Below are positions 55,411-64,000 of a stretch of DNA of 64,000 nt, piece by piece. Source of the stretch: Roseovarius autotrophicus (GTDB taxonomy: Bacteria; Pseudomonadota; Alphaproteobacteria; Rhodobacterales; Rhodobacteraceae); assembly GCF_018069895.1 (NCBI RefSeq), contig NZ_JAGQDH010000001.1, forward strand, positions 1-64,000. Reading direction: 5' to 3'. The stretch's first letter is position 1, and each line of letters starts with the position of its first letter. The notes under the pieces are model-generated. The model ran no database searches, was not told the origin of the DNA, and saw only the letters and a list, made by a program, of their open reading frames with translations. The position numbers and the translations under genes were made by a program.

Positions 55411-56229
55411 CTAACTGCCCACGCCCTTCGGCAGAACCTGCTCGAAGCGGTTGCCCTCGGTATCGGTCGCCAGAACCCGCAGCGCGGGCGCGCCATTGTC
55501 GGAATACGAGAACCGGAACACCGGGTTTTCCGAGATCGAAATGCCGCCATCCATGGTAAAGAGCAACGCCTCGCCTTGCCATACCTCCAGATGGTCGATG
55601 AAATGGGCCGGGATGAAGAGATGGGTGATCTGGTCGCGTTGCAGGCCCGAGTAGTTTGGGTGGCGCACCATGATCTGCGCTTCGCGGCGGGCGGGCGAGA
55701 TCTGCGGCGCAGCTGCGCCGGCAAGGAAGCTGCGCAGCTTCATCTGCCCCATGTTGGCCAGCGCCTCTTCAGGCGCGCGCGAGGCAGGGGCCGAACAGCC
55801 ACCCGACGCCTTGACGAAACGGCCGGTCATGAAAAGGCCCGCATCGGTCTCGGCGATCACGCGGACGTTGGAATACTGGTTCACCCGCACACGCAATTCG
55901 AAATCGAGCGGCGCCATCGCCGCGCCAAAGCCCAGTTCGGCGGCGACGGGGGCGGGGTTCTCGTCGATCACCACGGTGGCCTTGCGGATCGCTGCGCTCG
56001 GATCGGTCTGGCGCAGCACGATCGGAACCGTAGCCGCGTCATGGGCGCGATAGGGCGCATCAAGGCTGAGCAGGTCCGCACCGTCACCGATTGGCGCCGT
56101 GCCGATGATATCCTCGCGCAGCATCTCCCACTGGGTGCTTTCGGTCAGGGGATTGGGCGCCTCCTGGGCCTGAACGGCAAGCCCGAGCGCGAGCGCAATG
56201 GCGGTGGCGCAGATCAGGCTGCGGGACAT
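55411..56229 (-). CDS. SoxYZ-like carrier fusion of quinoprotein systems
   Basis: A 272-residue exported protein (signal to about residue 22) that joins a SoxY-like half and a SoxZ-like half. The carrier motif, which in SoxY is a C-terminal GGCGG arm, is here internal: KASGGCSAPA with Cys145 between the halves. Such proteins are annotated as quinoprotein dehydrogenase-associated SoxYZ-like carriers because they co-occur with PQQ dehydrogenases. What is carried on the cysteine is not known. Divergent from the metallo-beta-lactamase gene at 56361 and 4.5 kb from xoxF. Confidence 0.85.
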   Translation of the reverse strand: MSRSLICATAIALALGLAVQAQEAPNPLTESTQWEMLREDIIGTAPIGDGADLLSLDAPYRAHDAATVPIVLRQTDPSAAIRKATVVIDENPAPVAAELGFGAAMAPLDFELRVRVNQYSNVRVIAETDAGLFMTGRFVKASGGCSAPASRAPEEALANMGQMKLRSFLAGAAAPQISPARREAQIMVRHPNYSGLQRDQITHLFIPAHFIDHLEVWQGEALLFTMDGGISISENPVFRFSYSDNGAPALRVLATDTEGNRFEQVLPKGVGS

Positions 56230-56360
56230 GGGTGATGCCTCCTCGTGATGGCGGGTGCTTCATAGCACGGATTGCCCTTTCCAAGAAGCCCGACCAAAGT
56301 TGGCATGGATCAACTCTGCGTGCAGGCCAAGGATAGGCCCGTGCGACAGCGGAGCGCGCC

Positions 56361-57380
56361 ATGTTCGAGGTGATCCTGACCCTTTGCCTTGCCGGGGCCG
56401 ACGACCCCTGCCGCGACGTGCTGTTGCCGGGTTACGAGGCGGCGACGCGCGCGGGTTGTGAGGCGGCGCTTGTGGCGCGCCCGCCCGCGACGGCGGCAGA
56501 GGCGCGCTGCGTCCCGCTGGGCGAGGCCCTTGCCGTGGAGGAGATCGCGCCGGGGGTGTTCGTCCATCTCGGGAAGATCGCCGAGCCCGATGCGGCGAAC
56601 CGGGGCGACGCCGCCAATCTGGCCTTTGTCGTGGGTCACGCGGGCGTGGCGGTGATCGATACCGGCACGGCCCCGTGGATGGGCGAGGCGCTCTGGCGCG
56701 CTGTGCGGGCGCGCACTGATCTGCCGGTGTCCCATGTGATCGTGACCCATATCCACCCCGATCACATTCTGGGAACTGCGCCCTTCGTAACGGCGGGCGC
56801 GCGGGTCTGGGGGCATGAGAGGTTCAACCGGGCGCTGGCGGACCGGGCCGGGAACTACCTTGAGAGTCTCAACCGAGAGATCGGGCCGCGTGCGATGGTC
56901 GATGCGCAGGTGCCCGTGGTCTCGGATCCGGTGGTGCATCGCGCCGAAATCGACCTTGGGGGTCGGGTGCTGGTGCTGGAAGCCTGGCCGATGGCGCATA
57001 CCGGCACCGATCTGACGGTGCACGACCTGTCAAGTGATACGCTTTTCGCGGGCGATCTGGTCTTTGACACCCATGTGCCCGCCCTGGATGGCAGCCTGCG
57101 CGGCTGGCGTGCGGTTCTGGCCGGGTTGCAGGGGCGCGCGTTTTCCCGCGTCGTGCCGGGACATGGCGGGCCGTCGCTCGACTGGCCAGAGGGCGGCGCG
57201 GCCACGGCGCGCTATCTTTCGGTGCTGGAGCGCGACACGCGCGCGGCGATTGCCGAAGGCGTGCGGCTTGGCGAGGCGGTGACGCGGATCGCGGTCGGAG
57301 AGGCGGGGGCGTGGACACTTTTCGAGGCCTATAATGCGCGCAACGCCACGGTGGCCTTTACCGAACTAGAATGGGACTAG
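56361..57380 (+). CDS. metallo-beta-lactamase-fold hydrolase of quinoprotein relay type
   Basis: A 339-residue zinc hydrolase with the H130-x-H-x-D-H135 motif (THIHPDHILG), further ligands in WPMAHTGTD and PGHGGP, and GDLVFDTHVP. The N-terminal 50 residues hold three cysteines (CLAG, DPCRD, AGCEA) and a weak signal. It fits the 'quinoprotein relay system zinc metallohydrolase' group found beside PQQ dehydrogenases and SoxYZ-like carriers; by analogy with SoxB or persulfide-handling enzymes it may act on the carrier-bound group. This role is inference. Confidence 0.8.
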   Translation: MFEVILTLCLAGADDPCRDVLLPGYEAATRAGCEAALVARPPATAAEARCVPLGEALAVEEIAPGVFVHLGKIAEPDAANRGDAANLAFVVGHAGVAVIDTGTAPWMGEALWRAVRARTDLPVSHVIVTHIHPDHILGTAPFVTAGARVWGHERFNRALADRAGNYLESLNREIGPRAMVDAQVPVVSDPVVHRAEIDLGGRVLVLEAWPMAHTGTDLTVHDLSSDTLFAGDLVFDTHVPALDGSLRGWRAVLAGLQGRAFSRVVPGHGGPSLDWPEGGAATARYLSVLERDTRAAIAEGVRLGEAVTRIAVGEAGAWTLFEAYNARNATVAFTELEWD

Positions 57381-57387
57381 GCACCCG

Positions 57388-58032
57388 TCATTGCGGCAAG
57401 CGGATGCCCTCCTGCAACATCCGCGCCAGCGCAAAAAGGCGCTGTTCGATCAGCACCGGCGTCTCGCACAGATAGGTGATCGTGGTCTGGCGGTCGGCAT
57501 GGATCGTCTGATCCCAGTCGATCTGTTCCTCAAGCCCATCGACCTTGTCGAAATCGGGGGTATCGGTCTGCATGAGCCGGGTCATCTCGGTGCGTGCCGC
57601 CTTGATCCGCTCGGCAAGCGCGATCTGGCTGAGAGAGAAGGTCTCGATCCCGCCAATGACCTGTGTGCGCCGCGCGGACAGCACCTCGAAGGTTTGCGCG
57701 ACAACACGCCCGAGAATGTCGGGGGCACCATCGTGGCGGGCGGCAAAGGCACTGATCTCAGGGCGTAATTCCTCCGGGGCAAGACGGCGCAGCGCAAGGC
57801 GCGCGGCGAGATCCCTGATCTCTGCGGCCAGCGCGGCGTCTTCAGGGGCGCCTTCCGGGATCGGGTGGGGCCACATCAGCCCGATTGACAGCACCGCCAC
57901 CTTGCGCTGGATGCAGGGCCATGTGGGATCGGCGTAATCAGCGGCCAGTCCCGGTCCGGCAGACAACACGAAACCCGCCAGAACGAGCGCGGCAAGGTGG
58001 CCAAGCGGGGCGGGCCTTGGGCCATGGATCAT
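57388..58032 (-). CDS. exported protein of unknown function in the xox region
   Basis: A 214-residue protein with a strong AGGAGG site before ATG 58032 and a signal peptide (hydrophobic to about residue 30, ending GLAA). The mature part starts [15 protein letters not shown] and is mostly helical, with two cysteines (C40 and C189 in ITYLCET) that could pair. No domain is recognised. It lies between the metallohydrolase and adhI, convergent with the former and divergent from the latter, so a link with methanol oxidation or the relay is plausible but unproven. Confidence 0.7.
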
Positions 58033-58209
58033 CGCGGCACCTCCTTCGTTTCGACTATGGTGAAGCATGCCCGTCCTGTCCACCGGACCCAATACCCACC
58101 AATGTCGCAATTGTTCGGCGTGCGGACGCGCTCGCATACTGGCGTGGACAGTGATGGTCTGTCGCGTCATCATCTCGACGTTGTCAGACACCAAATCAAA
58201 GAGGATTTC

Positions 58210-59322
58210 ATGCGTACGAGAGCGGCAGTTGCAGTAGAGGCGGGCAAGCCTCTGGAGATCATGGAAGTGAATCTCGACGGCCCCAAGGCAGGCGAGGTTC
58301 TGGTCGAGATCAAGGCCACTGGTCTGTGCCATACCGATGAATTCACCCGTTCGGGTGATGACCCCGAGGGGATTTTTCCGGCCATTCTGGGCCATGAAGG
58401 TGCGGGTGTGGTGATCGAGGTCGGCGAGGGGGTGACGAGCCTTGAAGTGGGCGATCACGTCATCCCGCTCTACACGCCGGAATGCCGCGAATGCGAATAC
58501 TGTCTCAACCCAAAGACCAATCTGTGCCAGTCGATCCGCTCGACGCAGGGTCAGGGCCTTCTGCCCGATGGCACCACGCGGTTTTCCATGCTCGATGGCA
58601 CACCCATTCATCACTACATGGGCTGCTCGACCTTCGCCAATCACACCGTGGTCCCTGAAATCGCGCTGGCCAAGGTGCGCAAGGACGCGCCATTCGACAA
58701 GATCTGCTATATCGGTTGCGGTGTGACCACGGGTATCGGCGCGGTGATCAACACCGCCAAGGTGGAACTGGGCAGCCGCGCGATCGTCTTTGGCCTCGGC
58801 GGCATCGGATTGAACGTCATTCAGGGTCTGCGGCTGGCGGGCGCGGCGCAGATCGTCGGGGTCGATCTCAACCCCGGCAAGGTCGAGATGGCGACGCATT
58901 TCGGCATGACCGATTTCGTCAATCCCAAGGATGTCTCGGGCGATCTGGTGGCGCATCTGGTCGAACTGACCGGCGGCGGGGCGGATTACACCTTCGACGC
59001 CACGGGCAACGTCAATGTCATGCGCACGGCACTTGAGGCCGCGCACAAGGGTTGGGGCGAGAGCGTCATCATCGGTGTGGCGCCTGCGGGGGCCGAGATC
59101 AGCACGCGCCCCTTCCAGCTTGTCACTGGCCGGGTCTGGCGCGGCACGGCCTTTGGCGGCGCGCGGGGCCGCACCGATGTGCCGAAGATCGTCGATATGT
59201 ACATGAACGGGATGATCGAGATCGATCCGATGATCACCCACAAGCTGACGCTCGACGAGATCAATCACGGCTTTGACCTGATGCACCGGGGCGAGTCGAT
59301 CCGCGCGGTTGTGGAGTATTGA
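58210..59322 (+). CDS. adhI: S-(hydroxymethyl)glutathione dehydrogenase (class III alcohol dehydrogenase)
   Basis: A 370-residue zinc enzyme (adhI/flhA) that oxidises the formaldehyde-glutathione adduct with NAD. Catalytic zinc ligands are in GLCHTDE, GHEGAG and CYIGCG; the structural zinc cysteines are in [15 protein letters not shown]; the NAD fold is [13 protein letters not shown] 58210 is behind AGAGGA. Its stop shares a base with the fghA start (TGATG). Cytoplasmic; follows periplasmic methanol oxidation. Confidence 0.96.
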
Positions 59323-60176
59323 TGGTGGAGACCGTTTCGGAAAACCGCAGCTTCGGCGGCGTACAGGGTGTCTATCGGCACCGCTCGACCGCCTGCGCCT
59401 GCGATATGACCTTTGGCCTCTACCTGCCCCCACAGGCAGGGGCCGGACCGGTCCCGGTGCTGTGGTATCTCTCGGGGCTGACCTGCACCCATGAGAATGC
59501 CATGGTCAAGGGCGGGTTTCAGGAACACGCCGCGCGGCATGGTCTGGCGGTGATCTTTCCCGACACCTCGCCCCGGGGCGAGGGCGTGGCCGATGACGGC
59601 GCCTATGACCTGGGCCAGGGGGCGGGGTTCTACGTGAACGCCACCCGCGCGCCCTGGGCCCCGCATTTCCGCATGTATGACTATGTGCTGACAGAGTTGC
59701 GCGGGCTGGTCATGGGTGCGTTTCCGCTGGCTGATCGGCATGGCATCACCGGTCATTCCATGGGTGGGCATGGTGCGCTGACACTGGCGATGAACAACCC
59801 AGAGATGTTTTTATCCCTCTCGGCCTTCGCGCCGATCGCGCATCCCACCCGTTCGGACTGGGGACGCAAGCAGCTTGGCGCCTATCTTGGCGAGGACGAG
59901 AGCGCCTGGGTCGGATACGATTCGGTGTTGCTTCTGGAAGAGCGGGGCTGGATCGGGGATATTCTTGTAGATCAGGGAGTTGATGACAATTTCATTGATC
60001 TTCTCATGCCCGAGTCGCTGGCTGCGGCAATGGCGCGCAAACGCATCCCCGGTCAGTTCCGGCTTCAGCCGGGATATGATCACTCTTACTTCTTCGTAAG
60101 TTCATTTGCCGGCGACCATGTCACGTGGCATGCTGAGCGCCTGAAAGCAAGACAACCTAAGGGAGTAACCGAATGA
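59322..60176 (+). CDS. fghA: S-formylglutathione hydrolase
   Basis: A 284-residue serine esterase giving formate and glutathione. The nucleophile is in GHSMGGHGAL, the oxyanion region in YLSGLTCTHENAM, and the histidine in DHSYFFVSSF. ATG 59322 overlaps the adhI stop; its own stop overlaps the cytochrome c start by four bases. Second step of glutathione-linked formaldehyde oxidation. Confidence 0.95.
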   Translation: MVETVSENRSFGGVQGVYRHRSTACACDMTFGLYLPPQAGAGPVPVLWYLSGLTCTHENAMVKGGFQEHAARHGLAVIFPDTSPRGEGVADDGAYDLGQGAGFYVNATRAPWAPHFRMYDYVLTELRGLVMGAFPLADRHGITGHSMGGHGALTLAMNNPEMFLSLSAFAPIAHPTRSDWGRKQLGAYLGEDESAWVGYDSVLLLEERGWIGDILVDQGVDDNFIDLLMPESLAAAMARKRIPGQFRLQPGYDHSYFFVSSFAGDHVTWHAERLKARQPKGVTE

Positions 60177-60553
60177 AACGATTGACGTTCGCCAGTATCT
60201 GCCTTGCTGCCCTGCCAGTCATGGCCGCGGCGGAAGGCGATGCCGCCAACGGTGAAAAGGTGTTCAACAAGTGCAAGGCCTGCCACATGGTCGGCGACGA
60301 TGCCAAGAACCGGGTCGGGCCGGAACTCAACGGGATCGTGGGCCGCGCGGTCGGCGCGGTCGAAGGGTTCGCCTATTCCGACACACTCAAGGAGATGGGC
60401 GCGTCTGGCGCGGTCTGGTCCGAGGACGTGCTTGCCGCCTTCCTCGAGAAGCCACGCGACTTTGCGAAAGGCACCAAGATGGCGTTTCCGGGGCTGCGCA
60501 AGGAGGAAGAGCGCGCCGACGTGATCGCCTATCTCGCGACCTTCTCGGAGTAG
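60173..60553 (+). CDS. periplasmic class I cytochrome c
   Basis: A 126-residue protein with a signal peptide (to about 20) and one haem motif C34-K-A-C-H38; [11 protein letters not shown] and the axial methionine in KMAFPGL complete a cytochrome c2/c550-type fold. It overlaps fghA by ATGA and precedes xoxF, so it probably passes electrons from methanol dehydrogenase to the oxidase. Confidence 0.92.
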
Positions 60554-60613
60554 GTCGCACCGGAATTGCTGTTACGGGCCGTTGGAGAGACCGGCCCGAA
60601 GCGGCAAGCGAAG

Positions 60614-60642
60614 GACGACCGTTTCCACTGGAAACGGTCGTC
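60614..60642. promoter_or_regulatory. perfect 13-bp hairpin upstream of xoxF
   Basis: Arms GACGACCGTTTCC and its exact complement enclose ACT, 42 bases before the xoxF start. No T-run follows. It may end transcripts from adhI-fghA partially, protect the xoxF mRNA 5' end, or bind a regulator. Confidence 0.6.
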
Positions 60643-60684
60643 ACAAACCGCGGCCCCCGTGCCGCAGCTCAGGGAGGAGCAGGA

Positions 60685-62487
60685 ATGAGAAAGCTGACGC
60701 TTTTGACCTCCGGGATCGCGCTTTGCACGGCCAGCATGGCCATGGCAAACGATGATCTCGTCGCCAAGATGAATGACCCCAAGCAATGGGTTATTCAGAC
60801 CGGCGATTACAAGAACCAGCGTTATTCGGAACTGGACCAGATCAACGCCGACAACGTGGGCAAGCTTCAGGTTGCCTGGACCTTCTCGACCGGCGTGCTG
60901 CGTGGGCACGAGGGTTCGCCGCTGGTGATCGGCAACACGATGTATGTGCATACGCCATTCCCGAATATCGTCTACGCACTCGATCTGGCCGACGAAGGCA
61001 AGATCATCTGGAAATACGAGCCGCGCCAGGACCCCGATGTGATCCCGGTGATGTGCTGTGACACTGTCAACCGCGGCGTCGCCTATGCCGATGGCAAGAT
61101 CATCCTGCACCAGGCCGATACCAAGATCGTCGCGCTCAACGCCGATACCGGCCAGGTCGAGTGGGAGGCCGTCAATGGCGATCCCGCCATCGGCGAGACC
61201 AACACCGCCACTGTGCTGCCGGTCAAGGACAAGGTGATCGTGGGTATCTCGGGCGGCGAGTTCGGTGTTCAGGGCCATGTGACCGCCTATGACCTTGTCA
61301 CCGGCGAGCGCCTGTGGCGTGCCTACTCGGTCGGCCCCGACGATCAACTCCTGTTCGATCCCGAAAAGACCACCGCGCTTGGCAAGCCGGTCGGGCCTGA
61401 CAGCTCGCTCAACAGTTGGGAAGGCGATCAGTGGAAAATCGGCGGCGGCACAACCTGGGGCTGGTATTCGGCCGATCTCGAGGAGAACCTGTTCTATTAT
61501 GGCTCGGGCAATCCCTCGACCTGGAACCCGGCGCAGCGTCCGGGCGACAACAAGTGGTCGATGACCATCTTTGCGCGTGACATCGATACCGGCGTGGCCA
61601 AGTGGGTCTATCAGATGACGCCCCATGACGAATGGGATTACGACGGCGTCAACGAGATGATTCTGACCGAGCAGGAGGTGAACGGCGAGACGCGCAAGCT
61701 GCTCACCCATTTCGACCGCAACGGTCTGGCCTATACCATGGACCGGGTGACCGGCGAGCTGCTCGTGGCCGAAAAATTCGACCCGGCGGTGAACTGGACC
61801 ACGGGCGTCGATATGGATCCCAACTCGTCCAGCTACGGGCGTCCGGCGGTGGTGGCGCAGTATTCGACCGCGCAGAACGGCGAGGACGTCAACACAACCG
61901 GCATCTGCCCGGCGGCGCTTGGCACCAAGGATCAGCAGCCAGCAGCCTATTCGCCCAAGACGGGGATCTTCTATGTCCCGACCAATCATGTCTGCATGGA
62001 TTACGAGCCGTTCCGCGTGAGCTATACCGCCGGTCAGCCCTATGTGGGCGCGACGCTGGCGATGTATCCTGCGCCCGACAGCCATGGCGGCATGGGCAAC
62101 TTCATCGCCTGGGACAATATCGAGGGCAAGATCAAGTGGTCGATCTCCGAGAAGTTCTCGGTCTGGTCGGGTGCTCTGGCCACCGCGGGCGACGTGGTGT
62201 TCTACGGCACGCTCGAAGGCCATCTCAAGGCTGTGCACGCCGAGACGGGAGACGAGCTTTACCGCTTCAAGACCCCCTCGGGCATCATCGGCAACGTGAT
62301 GACCTACGAGCAAGACGGCAAGCAGTATGTCGGCATCCTGTCGGGTGTGGGCGGCTGGGCCGGGATCGGCCTTGCGGCGGGTCTGACCAATCCCAATGAC
62401 GGTCTGGGTGCTGTGGGCGGCTATGCCGCGCTCAGCGACTATACCGCACTGGGCGGCCAACTCACCGTTTTTGCCTTGCCTGACTGA
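60685..62487 (+). CDS. xoxF: lanthanide-dependent methanol dehydrogenase XoxF
   Basis: A 600-residue PQQ enzyme of the periplasm. After the signal peptide (to about 21) the eight-bladed propeller shows the vicinal disulfide C124-C125 (MCCDTVNRG), metal ligands E192 (SGGEFG) and N276 (GSGNPSTW), the catalytic D318 and the extra D320 in DEWDYDG. This second aspartate binds the rare-earth ion and separates XoxF from calcium MxaF, which has Ala there. Good AGGAG site. Heads the xoxFGJ run. Confidence 0.97.
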
Positions 62488-62562
62488 TCGGGCCTGACAC
62501 CGGACCGGCGCGCGGGCCAGGATGCCCCCGTGCCGGTCCCCCAAGACCAGACAGAGGACAGC

Positions 62563-63057
62563 ATGACCTTCATTCCACGGCTTCTCGCCACCGGGCTGGC
62601 CGCCGGTCTCGCCACCGCCGCCGCCGCGCAAGACAACATCACCGCCGCCTATGACGAGGGCGGGCGCTACTACACTGAGGACGACATCCCGACCTTCAAT
62701 GTGGCCGAGGATGGCACGGTCGACTGGCTGACCTTCTCGGGTTTCCGCCGCTACCATTCGGAATGCCATGTCTGCCACGGCCCCGACGGCGAAGGCTCGA
62801 CCTATGCGCCGGCGCTGAAGAAATCGGCGCTGAACATGGATTACTACGATTTCGTCGATGTCGTCGTGAACGGCCGTGTGAACGGCACTTCGGTCATGCC
62901 GCATTTCGGCGATAACCTGAACGTCATGTGCTACCTTGACGATATCTACGTCTATCTCAAGGCGCGCGGTGTCGAAGGCGTGGCGCGGGGCCGCCCCGCG
63001 AAGAAGGATGCCAAATCCGATGAGATCGCGGAGGCCGAACTTGCCTGCATGGGCTGA
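62563..63057 (+). CDS. xoxG: cytochrome c XoxG (electron acceptor of XoxF)
   Basis: A 164-residue cytochrome cL-like protein: signal peptide to about 22, haem motif C68-H-V-C-H72, then VNGRVNGTSVMPHFGDN with a likely axial methionine and a C-terminal LDDIYVYLKARG helix. Position right after xoxF fits its role as the acceptor of methanol electrons. Confidence 0.92.
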   Translation: MTFIPRLLATGLAAGLATAAAAQDNITAAYDEGGRYYTEDDIPTFNVAEDGTVDWLTFSGFRRYHSECHVCHGPDGEGSTYAPALKKSALNMDYYDFVDVVVNGRVNGTSVMPHFGDNLNVMCYLDDIYVYLKARGVEGVARGRPAKKDAKSDEIAEAELACMG

Positions 63058-63886
63058 GGGATTGCGCCGTGCGGCGGCAGGTCTCGCGCTTGGCGCGGGG
63101 CTTGCGGCGGGCGCTCTGGCGCAGACCTCGGATCTGGTGGCGGTGGATGCGCTGCGCGTCTGCGCCGACCCCGCGAATGCGCCCATGTCGTCGGAGGATG
63201 GCAGCGGATATGAGAACGTGCTTGCCGAACTGATCGCCGAAAAGCTGGGCGTGTCGGTCACTTACGAGTGGTATCCGATGTCCACCGGCTTTATCCGCAA
63301 CACGCTGCGCGACAAGAAATGCGATGTCGTGATCGGTTACGCGCAGGGGCACGAACTGGTGCTCAACACCAATCATTACATGACCTCGGTCTATACGCTG
63401 ATCGTGCCTGCGGGTGGCGATCTGGCGGAGGTGGAAACACTCGCCGATCCGCGCCTCAAGGGGCGGCGCATCGGCATTGTCGCGGGCACGCCGCCCGGTG
63501 CCCATCTGGCGCGGCACGGGCTGATCGCGCGCTCCAGAGGCTACCCGCTCATCGTGGACCGCCGCCATCAAAGCCCGGCGCAGGACATGCTGGCCGATCT
63601 GGAGGCGGGCGAGATCGACGCGGCGATCCTGTGGGGGCCTTTGGGCGGGCCGTTGGTCAAGCGCGCGCATCCCGGCCTCAAGGTCATTCCGATGGTGCGC
63701 GAAGAGGGCGCGCCGCGCCTATTCTACCGCATCACGATGGGCGTGCGGCAGGGTGAGAAGGTCTGGCAGCGCAAGCTCAATTCCCTCATCCGCCGCCACC
63801 AGGGCGAGATCGACGCGCTGTTGCACGAGGCGGGCGTACCCTTGGCCAATGACATGGGCACGGCGCTTGTCGTGCCGGGTCCATGA
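63020..63886 (+). CDS. xoxJ: XoxJ-type periplasmic binding-protein-like partner
   Basis: A 288-residue exported protein of the solute-binding fold (LRVCADPANAPMSSEDGSGYENVLAELIAEKLG, KKCDVVIGYAQGHE, DMLADLEAGEIDAAILWGP), the 'quinoprotein dehydrogenase-associated binding protein' group. In methylotrophs XoxJ is thought to help activate or mature XoxF. Start at 63020 is chosen for the signal peptide; 63008 is possible. It overlaps the end of xoxG by about 38 bases in another frame. Confidence 0.87.
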   Translation: MRSRRPNLPAWAEGLRRAAAGLALGAGLAAGALAQTSDLVAVDALRVCADPANAPMSSEDGSGYENVLAELIAEKLGVSVTYEWYPMSTGFIRNTLRDKKCDVVIGYAQGHELVLNTNHYMTSVYTLIVPAGGDLAEVETLADPRLKGRRIGIVAGTPPGAHLARHGLIARSRGYPLIVDRRHQSPAQDMLADLEAGEIDAAILWGPLGGPLVKRAHPGLKVIPMVREEGAPRLFYRITMGVRQGEKVWQRKLNSLIRRHQGEIDALLHEAGVPLANDMGTALVVPGP

Positions 63887-64000
63887 GACACGCGGCCTTT
63901 CTCGCCGCGCTTCTCGCGCTCTCGGTGACGGCTGTGGCGCAGGGTGTGCGAGGGCCCGAGGGCTACCGGATGGACAATTACCGCGCGCCGGTGCCCGACA
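63883..64000 (+). CDS. PQQ-associated CXXCW-motif protein, partial at window edge
   Basis: The first 39 codons of a gene that continues past the window. ATG overlaps the xoxJ stop by four bases. A signal peptide (MRHAAFLAALLALSVTAVAQ) is followed by PEGYRMDNYRAPVP, which is the usual mature start of the rhodanese-like CXXCW proteins of PQQ-dependent catabolism clusters. The defining motif lies outside the window, so the call rests on this start and context. Confidence 0.6.
   Translation, partial: MRHAAFLAALLALSVTAVAQGVRGPEGYRMDNYRAPVPD

Follow-up and report, generated by a model that had tools for sequence, protein, structure and literature searches.

The SoxYZ-like carrier, metallohydrolase and rhodanese-like genes beside xoxFGJ in Roseovarius autotrophicus: a member of a known accessory set of pyrroloquinoline quinone alcohol dehydrogenases

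What a SoxYZ-like carrier, a metallohydrolase and a rhodanese-like protein do beside a lanthanide-type methanol dehydrogenase is the question raised by the first 64,000 nucleotides of contig NZ_JAGQDH010000001.1 of Roseovarius autotrophicus (the window), the last 8.6 kb of which encode these proteins, the third in part, together with XoxF, XoxG and XoxJ. A preliminary description of the window had put this cluster forward as an undescribed system, a claim that is withdrawn here, as such genes have already been reported beside pyrroloquinoline quinone (PQQ) dehydrogenases, in a paper of 2024 (PMC11237559) and a review of 2026 (PMC12997753). The cluster of the window belongs to these known accessory genes of PQQ alcohol dehydrogenases. 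No reaction is proven for the carrier set in the two reports, and we tentatively propose that it handles sulfur or thiol adducts for XoxF.

Association of the set with PQQ dehydrogenases

The carrier gene (55414–56229, minus strand) encodes a fused SoxYZ-like protein that scored 273.3 bits with TIGR04557 (cut-off 140) and matched both PF13501 (SoxY) and PF08770 (SoxZ). Beside it lies the gene for a relay-type zinc metallohydrolase 2 (56361–57377, plus strand; TIGR04559, 360.4 bits against a cut-off of 280), which is SoxH-like and has the metallo-beta-lactamase fold. The far end of the cluster, all on the plus strand, comprises xoxF (60685–62484; TIGR03075, 766.8 bits against 480.05), xoxG (62530–63057; a cytochrome, TIGR03874, 236.2 bits), xoxJ (63050–63886, read from 63050 with a provisional start codon; periplasmic binding-protein-like, TIGR03871, 290.9 bits) and the first 118 bases (63883–64000) of a CXXCW rhodanese-like gene, the whole of which is at C11:63883–64422 on the contig (TIGR03865, 223.5 bits against 128.05). 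The 600-amino-acid XoxF possesses D318 and D320 (DxD) and a vicinal CC at 124–125; as it both scores with the PQQ dehydrogenase family and has the extra Asp, the enzyme is assigned to the lanthanide type, its lanthanide dependence being predicted. The preliminary description had read XoxF with D318/D320, XoxG, XoxJ, a SoxY–SoxZ fusion with an internal GGC and an HxHxDH hydrolase from the sequence, and the family models and residues bear it out on all of these. Its CXXCW-type start belongs to the family named, although the motif itself lies beyond the 118 bases that are within the window.

Two samples were searched, one of 121 genomes of the order of the window, taken as Rhodobacterales, and one of 329 genomes of the phylum (E limits 1e-30 for TIGR04557 and TIGR03865, and 1e-100 for the PQQ dehydrogenase family); some genomes, such as G000, G006, G015 and G019, are in both. 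In the order sample the carrier (TIGR04557) was over cut-off in 18 of the 121 genomes and the CXXCW protein (TIGR03865) in exactly the same 18. The hydrolase (TIGR04559) passed its cut-off in 16 of them; in the other two, G053 and G103, a hydrolase of lower score lies beside the carrier. In Rhodobacterales the carrier tracks XoxG, being present in 16 of the 17 genomes with TIGR03874 and in only 2 of the 104 others, namely G053 and G103. The methanol/ethanol PQQ dehydrogenase family was over cut-off in 38 genomes, 20 of them without the carrier. Fisher tests on hand-tallied counts, ignoring relatedness, gave p 7e-17 for carrier against XoxG and p 1.5e-7 within the PQQ-dehydrogenase genomes; because the samples were unweighted for relatedness these values overstate independence, and the joint presence or absence of XoxG and carrier within genera g1, g7 and g24 is the safer evidence.

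In the phylum sample, 54 of the 329 genomes were over the TIGR04557 cut-off, 17 of them with hits that contained a stop. In all 18 of these hits (17 genomes) the open reading frame (ORF) ended a few residues past the GGC, so they were taken as separate canonical soxY and soxZ genes, leaving 37 genomes with fused carriers; none of the 17 was among the genomes with a PQQ dehydrogenase. The PQQ dehydrogenase family was found in 77 genomes, including all 37 with fused carriers, and the carrier in none of the 252 genomes that lacked it. The link to PQQ dehydrogenases drawn in the preliminary description therefore holds, with the exception of nine phage contigs. All 33 genomes with the CXXCW protein also possessed the carrier, which occurred without that protein in G139, G341, G353 and G429.

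A third comparison covered the best 80 of 588 carrier relatives (named loci). The hydrolase was present in 75 of the 80 loci, and no more than 2.5 kb from the carrier in 74 of these 75. Among the five loci without an adjoining hydrolase, L271 had a full-scoring copy elsewhere in its genome and three had only lower-scoring matches; the genome of L259 gave no hydrolase match at E 1e-20, but a stretch matching residues 1–29 persists there. Recurrent unassigned neighbours of the carrier outside Rhodobacterales were read as ORFs for pqqB-like proteins, cytochromes and binding proteins, together with many frame artefacts, and nothing decisive emerged from them.

Dehydrogenase sequences were read from 108 genomes of both samples (one to three each), 51 with the carrier and 57 without. 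All 57 carrier-less genomes had the vicinal CC, as did 50 of the 51 carrier genomes, the remaining enzyme being a fragment (G328), whilst the lanthanide Asp occurred in at least one of the enzymes read in 50 of the 51 carrier genomes compared with 37 of the 57 others. In one carrier genome (G174) the enzymes read had only DxS and DxT. A tie of the set to the vicinal CC or to the lanthanide Asp was rejected, both features being common in carrier-less genomes; neither predicts the set, and neither can alone be the reason for it. Of the 20 Rhodobacterales genomes with a PQQ dehydrogenase and no carrier, 19 possess an enzyme with CC and DxD that is 34–38 % identical to the XoxF of the window and is presumably of the ExaF/PedH kind, and one (G014) has xoxFGJ without the set. 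When enzymes were called XoxF type by a self-chosen profile score of about 850, 33 genomes combined such an enzyme with the carrier, and in five (G014, G189, G356, G400 and G418) the carrier was lacking, which makes the set accessory and XoxF a good but imperfect predictor of it. Lanthanide-dependent methanol oxidation is widespread, and the carrier accompanies the XoxF-type enzyme in these 33 of 38 genomes.

The carrier, its partner and the hydrolase

Apart from C7 of the leader, the carrier has a single cysteine, C145, in the motif SGGCSAP between the SoxY and SoxZ domains. The preliminary description had made its reading depend on the conservation of Cys145, and this arm cysteine was kept without exception in the 53 carriers aligned from the order and phylum loci; G[GA]C was kept in 113 of the 114 carrier-profile ORFs of the 80 named loci, the exception being a fragment of about 100 amino acids. 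A profile of 12 carriers matched solved SoxY/SoxZ (2ox5, E 2.3e-14), with the GGC of the carrier aligned on the GGC of the arm. With the SoxY_true model the carrier scored 49.4 bits, under the cut-off of 125. Its identification as the canonical thiosulfate carrier was rejected, as a canonical SoxY is encoded elsewhere in this genome, on contig C80. The locus in question (L004; G000:C80:50000–69000) includes a SoxH-like hydrolase, called by score like its SoxY, and soxB, soxCD and SoxT/YeeE-type ORFs, called by reading.

Six Rhodobacterales clusters (L080:13131–14084, L085:4110–4982, L079, L083, L084 and L103) have a second, diverged carrier near the CXXCW gene, in which GAC replaces GGC and which is 33–38 % identical to the carrier of the window; the TIGR04557 search of the order sample revealed none in the genome of the window. 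Fused SoxYZ carriers were also found on nine viral contigs (L316–L324; e.g. L319:9920–10711), in keeping with the viral members of the fused clades in PMC11237559. None of the rest of the 20-profile cluster set stood beside these carriers within the stretches examined. With TIGR04557, the carriers of L319 (264.5 bits), L316 (241.6 bits) and L321 (149.9 bits) passed and that of L322 (134.2 bits) failed. Two of the contigs were scanned for other genes: genes for a phage tail sheath, a terminase, a helicase and single-stranded-DNA binding lie on L319, and UvsX- and DnaB-like genes on L317. One phage carrier, searched against named phages, gave no match. In a different setting, L130:9495–9923 (minus strand) and eight other loci outside Rhodobacterales contain, by reading, a small secreted Cys-containing ORF about 1 kb from the carrier.

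The CXXCW protein is weakly rhodanese-like (PF00581, 20.7 bits, below the cut-off of 22.2). Its motif is CxxxCWxSWN, with one residue more between the cysteines than the family name implies, and C, C, W, S, W and N were each invariant in 45 of 45 sequences. The loop of the first Cys aligned marginally (E 0.095) on the Cys of chain 1qxn, which we take to be the Sud polysulfide transferase and whose database entry reads sulfide dehydrogenase.

The predicted metal ligands of the hydrolase (H130, H132, D134, H135, H213, D232 and H268) were invariant in all 56 aligned sequences, and the fold suggests that they bind metal. The AlphaFold2 model of the whole protein had a mean predicted local distance difference test score (pLDDT) of 96.1. 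Its nearest solved folds were 8d2z, a metallo-beta-lactamase protein from Burkholderia cenocepacia (Z 32.9, root-mean-square deviation 2.2, 273 residues), and the chlorothalonil hydrolytic dehalogenase 6uxu (Z 31.9, root-mean-square deviation 2.4, 275 residues); identity was only 22 %, so that a substrate is not inferable from these best structural matches. Neither glyoxalase II nor persulfide dioxygenase was among the 50 fold matches listed, which excludes nothing, and the glyoxalase II (GloB) model gave 21.1 bits, short of its cut-off of 200.8.

Both structural alignments begin at residue 55 or 57 and leave outside the match an N-terminal module (56361–56531, plus strand) with the cysteines C9, C17, C33 and C50. 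All four were invariant in the 56 aligned sequences, and a Pfam search of the module at E up to 1 found no family. Eight codons separate the start at 56361 from the in-frame stop before it, and none of them could serve as a start. A direct MFEA...C...C...C...C or similar start was found in all 16 over-cut-off Rhodobacterales hydrolases, and the same module start recurs in loci of rhizobia, Roseibium and others that carry this cluster. In two genomes of the same genus as that of the window (G434 and G440) the N-termini of the hydrolase look, by eye, identical to those of Roseovarius atlanticus and Roseovarius sp. MMSF_3350, as would be expected of a Roseovarius. Of the 75 hydrolases of the named loci, 73 fitted the start pattern and the other two were similar by eye. 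In each of the 73 the four cysteines all precede the core; 66 start with ATG and seven with GTG, and 29 have no upstream in-frame ATG, GTG or TTG. An upstream start supplying a signal peptide was rejected on the strength of these 29, the rest being judged by eye only. Two stand-alone ORFs with a similar four-cysteine pattern may be related to the module, both tentative and weakly matched: L315:1396–1701 (plus strand, G430, E 0.0013), about 2 kb from the hydrolase, and L313:1477–1686 (minus strand, G440, E 4.9e-4), about 19 kb from it. We make no claim that the leaderless start or the module is unpublished, as the literature search was not aimed at these.

Export was assessed with a crude sequence test, a hydrophobic stretch preceded by net positive charge. 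It was passed by none of the 73 module hydrolases and by 28 of 34 hydrolases outside the clade, three further ones without a usable Met being excluded; by eye, these outside relatives have Sec-, Tat- or lipoprotein-like leaders. As controls, the test was passed by 64 of 71 relatives of the secreted ORF at 57391–58032 (described below), by 23 of the 28 carrier ORFs that fitted an anchor pattern, and by none of 47 FlhA proteins. The best Met was chosen for the outside hydrolases and the secreted ORF, which favours these groups. The mean hydrophobicity of the module stretch (2.32) was close to that of the exported controls (2.41 to 2.45; FlhA 0.96), so that the two differ only in charge and an unusual export signal is possible. 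To judge from these sequences, the hydrolase in the lineage of the window would either take an unusual route to the periplasm or work in the cytoplasm. This raises the question of how a carrier that is exported could work with a hydrolase that lacks an ordinary signal although their genes are neighbours.

Possible roles of the set

The explanation that we favour, with a probability of about 0.4, is an accessory system that handles sulfur or thiol adducts for XoxF. The set would most likely keep XoxF and its PQQ usable, sulfur or thiol adducts being removed, carried and disposed of; the rhodanese-like protein may pass sulfane sulfur or a thiol group to or from the carrier cysteine, and the hydrolase may free the group bound there. 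The strict tie to PQQ dehydrogenases suggests that this enzyme is itself the cargo or the beneficiary. A sulfur role is suggested by the kinship of the carrier with SoxY and SoxZ, by the rhodanese-like character of the CXXCW protein, weak as it is, and the invariance of its motif, and by the restriction of this protein and the carrier to the same 18 genomes of the order, with 33 of 33 in the phylum sample. It is also consistent with the inhibition of methanol use by thiosulfate in Hyphomicrobium denitrificans (cited in PMC12997753 and PMC11237559). Lastly, canonical SoxY hits were commoner in the carrier genomes of the order sample (16 of 18 compared with 54 of 103; hand tally, Fisher p 0.004).

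Several observations weigh against this explanation. The excess of canonical SoxY was weak within the PQQ-dehydrogenase genomes (16 of 18 compared with 12 of 20, p 0.067). Relatives of SoxT/YeeE, searched for with the two proteins of the genome of the window as queries, gave no match in the order, phylum or named loci, a search that could miss short PmpAB-like proteins; both source ORFs were recovered as a control in the search of the named loci. The fold of the hydrolase was nearest to hydrolases of various kinds, none of them a sulfur-carrier enzyme, and in this lineage the protein is without an ordinary signal peptide, which makes a periplasmic relay from carrier to hydrolase doubtful here. 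Transposon mutants of Pseudomonas putida had minimal phenotypes, in screens without rare earths (PMC12997753), and PMC11237559, in which carriers are noted in bacteria not living on thiosulfate, inclines towards a role in carbon metabolism. The preliminary description had suggested that a thiol-bound one-carbon or sulfur group may be moved between XoxF-related proteins and the hydrolase; the link to PQQ dehydrogenases and the conserved cysteine stand, whereas a periplasmic transfer to the hydrolase is doubtful in this lineage, with no module hydrolase passing the crude export test.

Oxidation of formaldehyde on a protein thiol is a somewhat unlikely alternative, in which formaldehyde from XoxF would be bound on the carrier cysteine as an S-hydroxymethyl group and converted by the dehydrogenase to S-formyl, from which the hydrolase would free formate. 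The products of flhA and fghA, encoded in the same cluster, do the same chemistry on glutathione, the carrier tracks XoxG in Rhodobacterales (16 of 17 compared with 2 of 104), and the metal ligand set of the hydrolase is complete. This proposal leaves the rhodanese-like partner without a role, however, and carriers also stand beside dehydrogenases that are not XoxF by profile score, whilst five XoxF-type genomes lack the carrier (33 have both). The missing signal of the hydrolase and its low score with the glyoxalase II model tell against it too.

We consider it unlikely that the set serves maturation, that is, that it helps to form the vicinal disulfide or to stabilise the cofactor of lanthanide-type dehydrogenases, an idea put forward in PMC12997753. 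The genes do sit within the dehydrogenase cluster, a CxxxC protein could perform thiol–disulfide exchange, and the lanthanide Asp is commoner in carrier genomes (50 of 51 compared with 37 of 57). Against this, the CC in all 57 carrier-less genomes and the lanthanide Asp in 37 of them imply that neither feature requires the set, and the 19 Rhodobacterales genomes with a CC and DxD enzyme manage without the carrier.

No more probable is a departure of the Rhodobacterales hydrolase from the relay, by which it would have lost its leader, gained the four-cysteine module and become a cytoplasmic enzyme acting, for example, on a glutathione thioester alongside FlhA and FghA, with the carrier working alone. 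The export test (0 of 73 compared with 28 of 34), the 29 hydrolases without any upstream in-frame start and the five of 80 named carrier loci without an adjoining hydrolase agree with such a history. The module stretch is nevertheless as hydrophobic as the exported controls and could be an unusual export signal, its four invariant cysteines, among which there is no CxxC knuckle, would suit disulfides and an oxidising environment, and the closeness of carrier and hydrolase genes, seen in 74 of the 75 named loci with both, speaks for a common task. Most improbable is that the carrier acts as a periplasmic stand-in for glutathione, with formaldehyde on its Cys converted by XoxF to a thioester and split to formate by a hydrolase that in Rhodobacterales reaches the carrier through the four-cysteine module in place of an ordinary signal peptide, which would place two parallel thiol-dependent formaldehyde routes, periplasmic on protein and cytoplasmic on glutathione, in one cluster.

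Other genes of the cluster and comparison with known systems

The cluster runs in the order carrier, hydrolase, secreted ORF, flhA, fghA, cytochrome, xoxF, xoxG, xoxJ and the start of the CXXCW gene. The preliminary description named its genes correctly as far as it went, but its list lacked the four genes between the hydrolase and xoxF. Of these, flhA (58210–59322, plus strand; TIGR02818, 601.3 bits) encodes S-(hydroxymethyl)glutathione dehydrogenase and fghA (59322–60176, plus strand; TIGR02821, 409.5 bits) S-formylglutathione hydrolase. The c-type cytochrome gene that follows (60173–60553, plus strand) matched PF00034, and NF043008 below the cut-off of the latter; it is presumably the gene called cycB in Paracoccus. 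The secreted ORF (57391–58032, minus strand) encodes a conserved protein of 214 amino acids with a leader, predicted to be all-helical (mean pLDDT 91.3), with an invariant WPC and a second invariant Cys in 44 of 44 aligned sequences. No NCBIfam or Pfam family was matched in profile scans, and a fold search with the model gave only helical matches among those listed (best E 0.054). Relatives occur in 73 of the 80 named loci and also in G014, whose xoxFGJ genes are not accompanied by the carrier, and the ORF is possibly a new family of xox clusters. By reading, the ORFs that follow the CXXCW gene (to 64422) on the contig are two for beta-propellers, one that is SRPBCC-like, and others for binding proteins and ABC transporters.

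Canonical SoxYZ of thiosulfate oxidation has the same fold and arm cysteine as the carrier of the window, but the cysteine of canonical SoxY is near the C terminus whereas that of the carrier is internal and followed by the SoxZ domain. The genomic islands of PMC11237559 are closer: fused SoxYZ clades and soxH lie near xoxF and next to a gene for a PQQ alcohol dehydrogenase or a formate dehydrogenase, and the legend of its Fig. 4 names a rhodanese gene; the basis there was SoxY trees from symbionts and free-living bacteria, and the roles suggested were carbon metabolism or protection from thiosulfate. Of two further sources, PMC12423496 treats sulfur regulators and PQQ genes, and PMC6382920 uses such proteins only as an outgroup.

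The ped cluster of P. putida (PMC12997753) encodes the same three kinds of protein beside PQQ dehydrogenases as the window, namely a rhodanese (PP_2666), a SoxYZ-like protein (PP_2677) and a SoxH-like protein (PP_2678), and homologues are named near xoxFGJ in M. extorquens AM1. It is proposed there that they form disulfides, stabilise the cofactor or shield PQQ from sulfur nucleophiles. The P. putida hydrolase is listed as non-cytoplasmic, whereas that of the window is of type 2, with a four-cysteine module and no ordinary signal. Compared with that account, the present counts show that neither the vicinal CC nor the lanthanide Asp of the dehydrogenase predicts the presence of the set.

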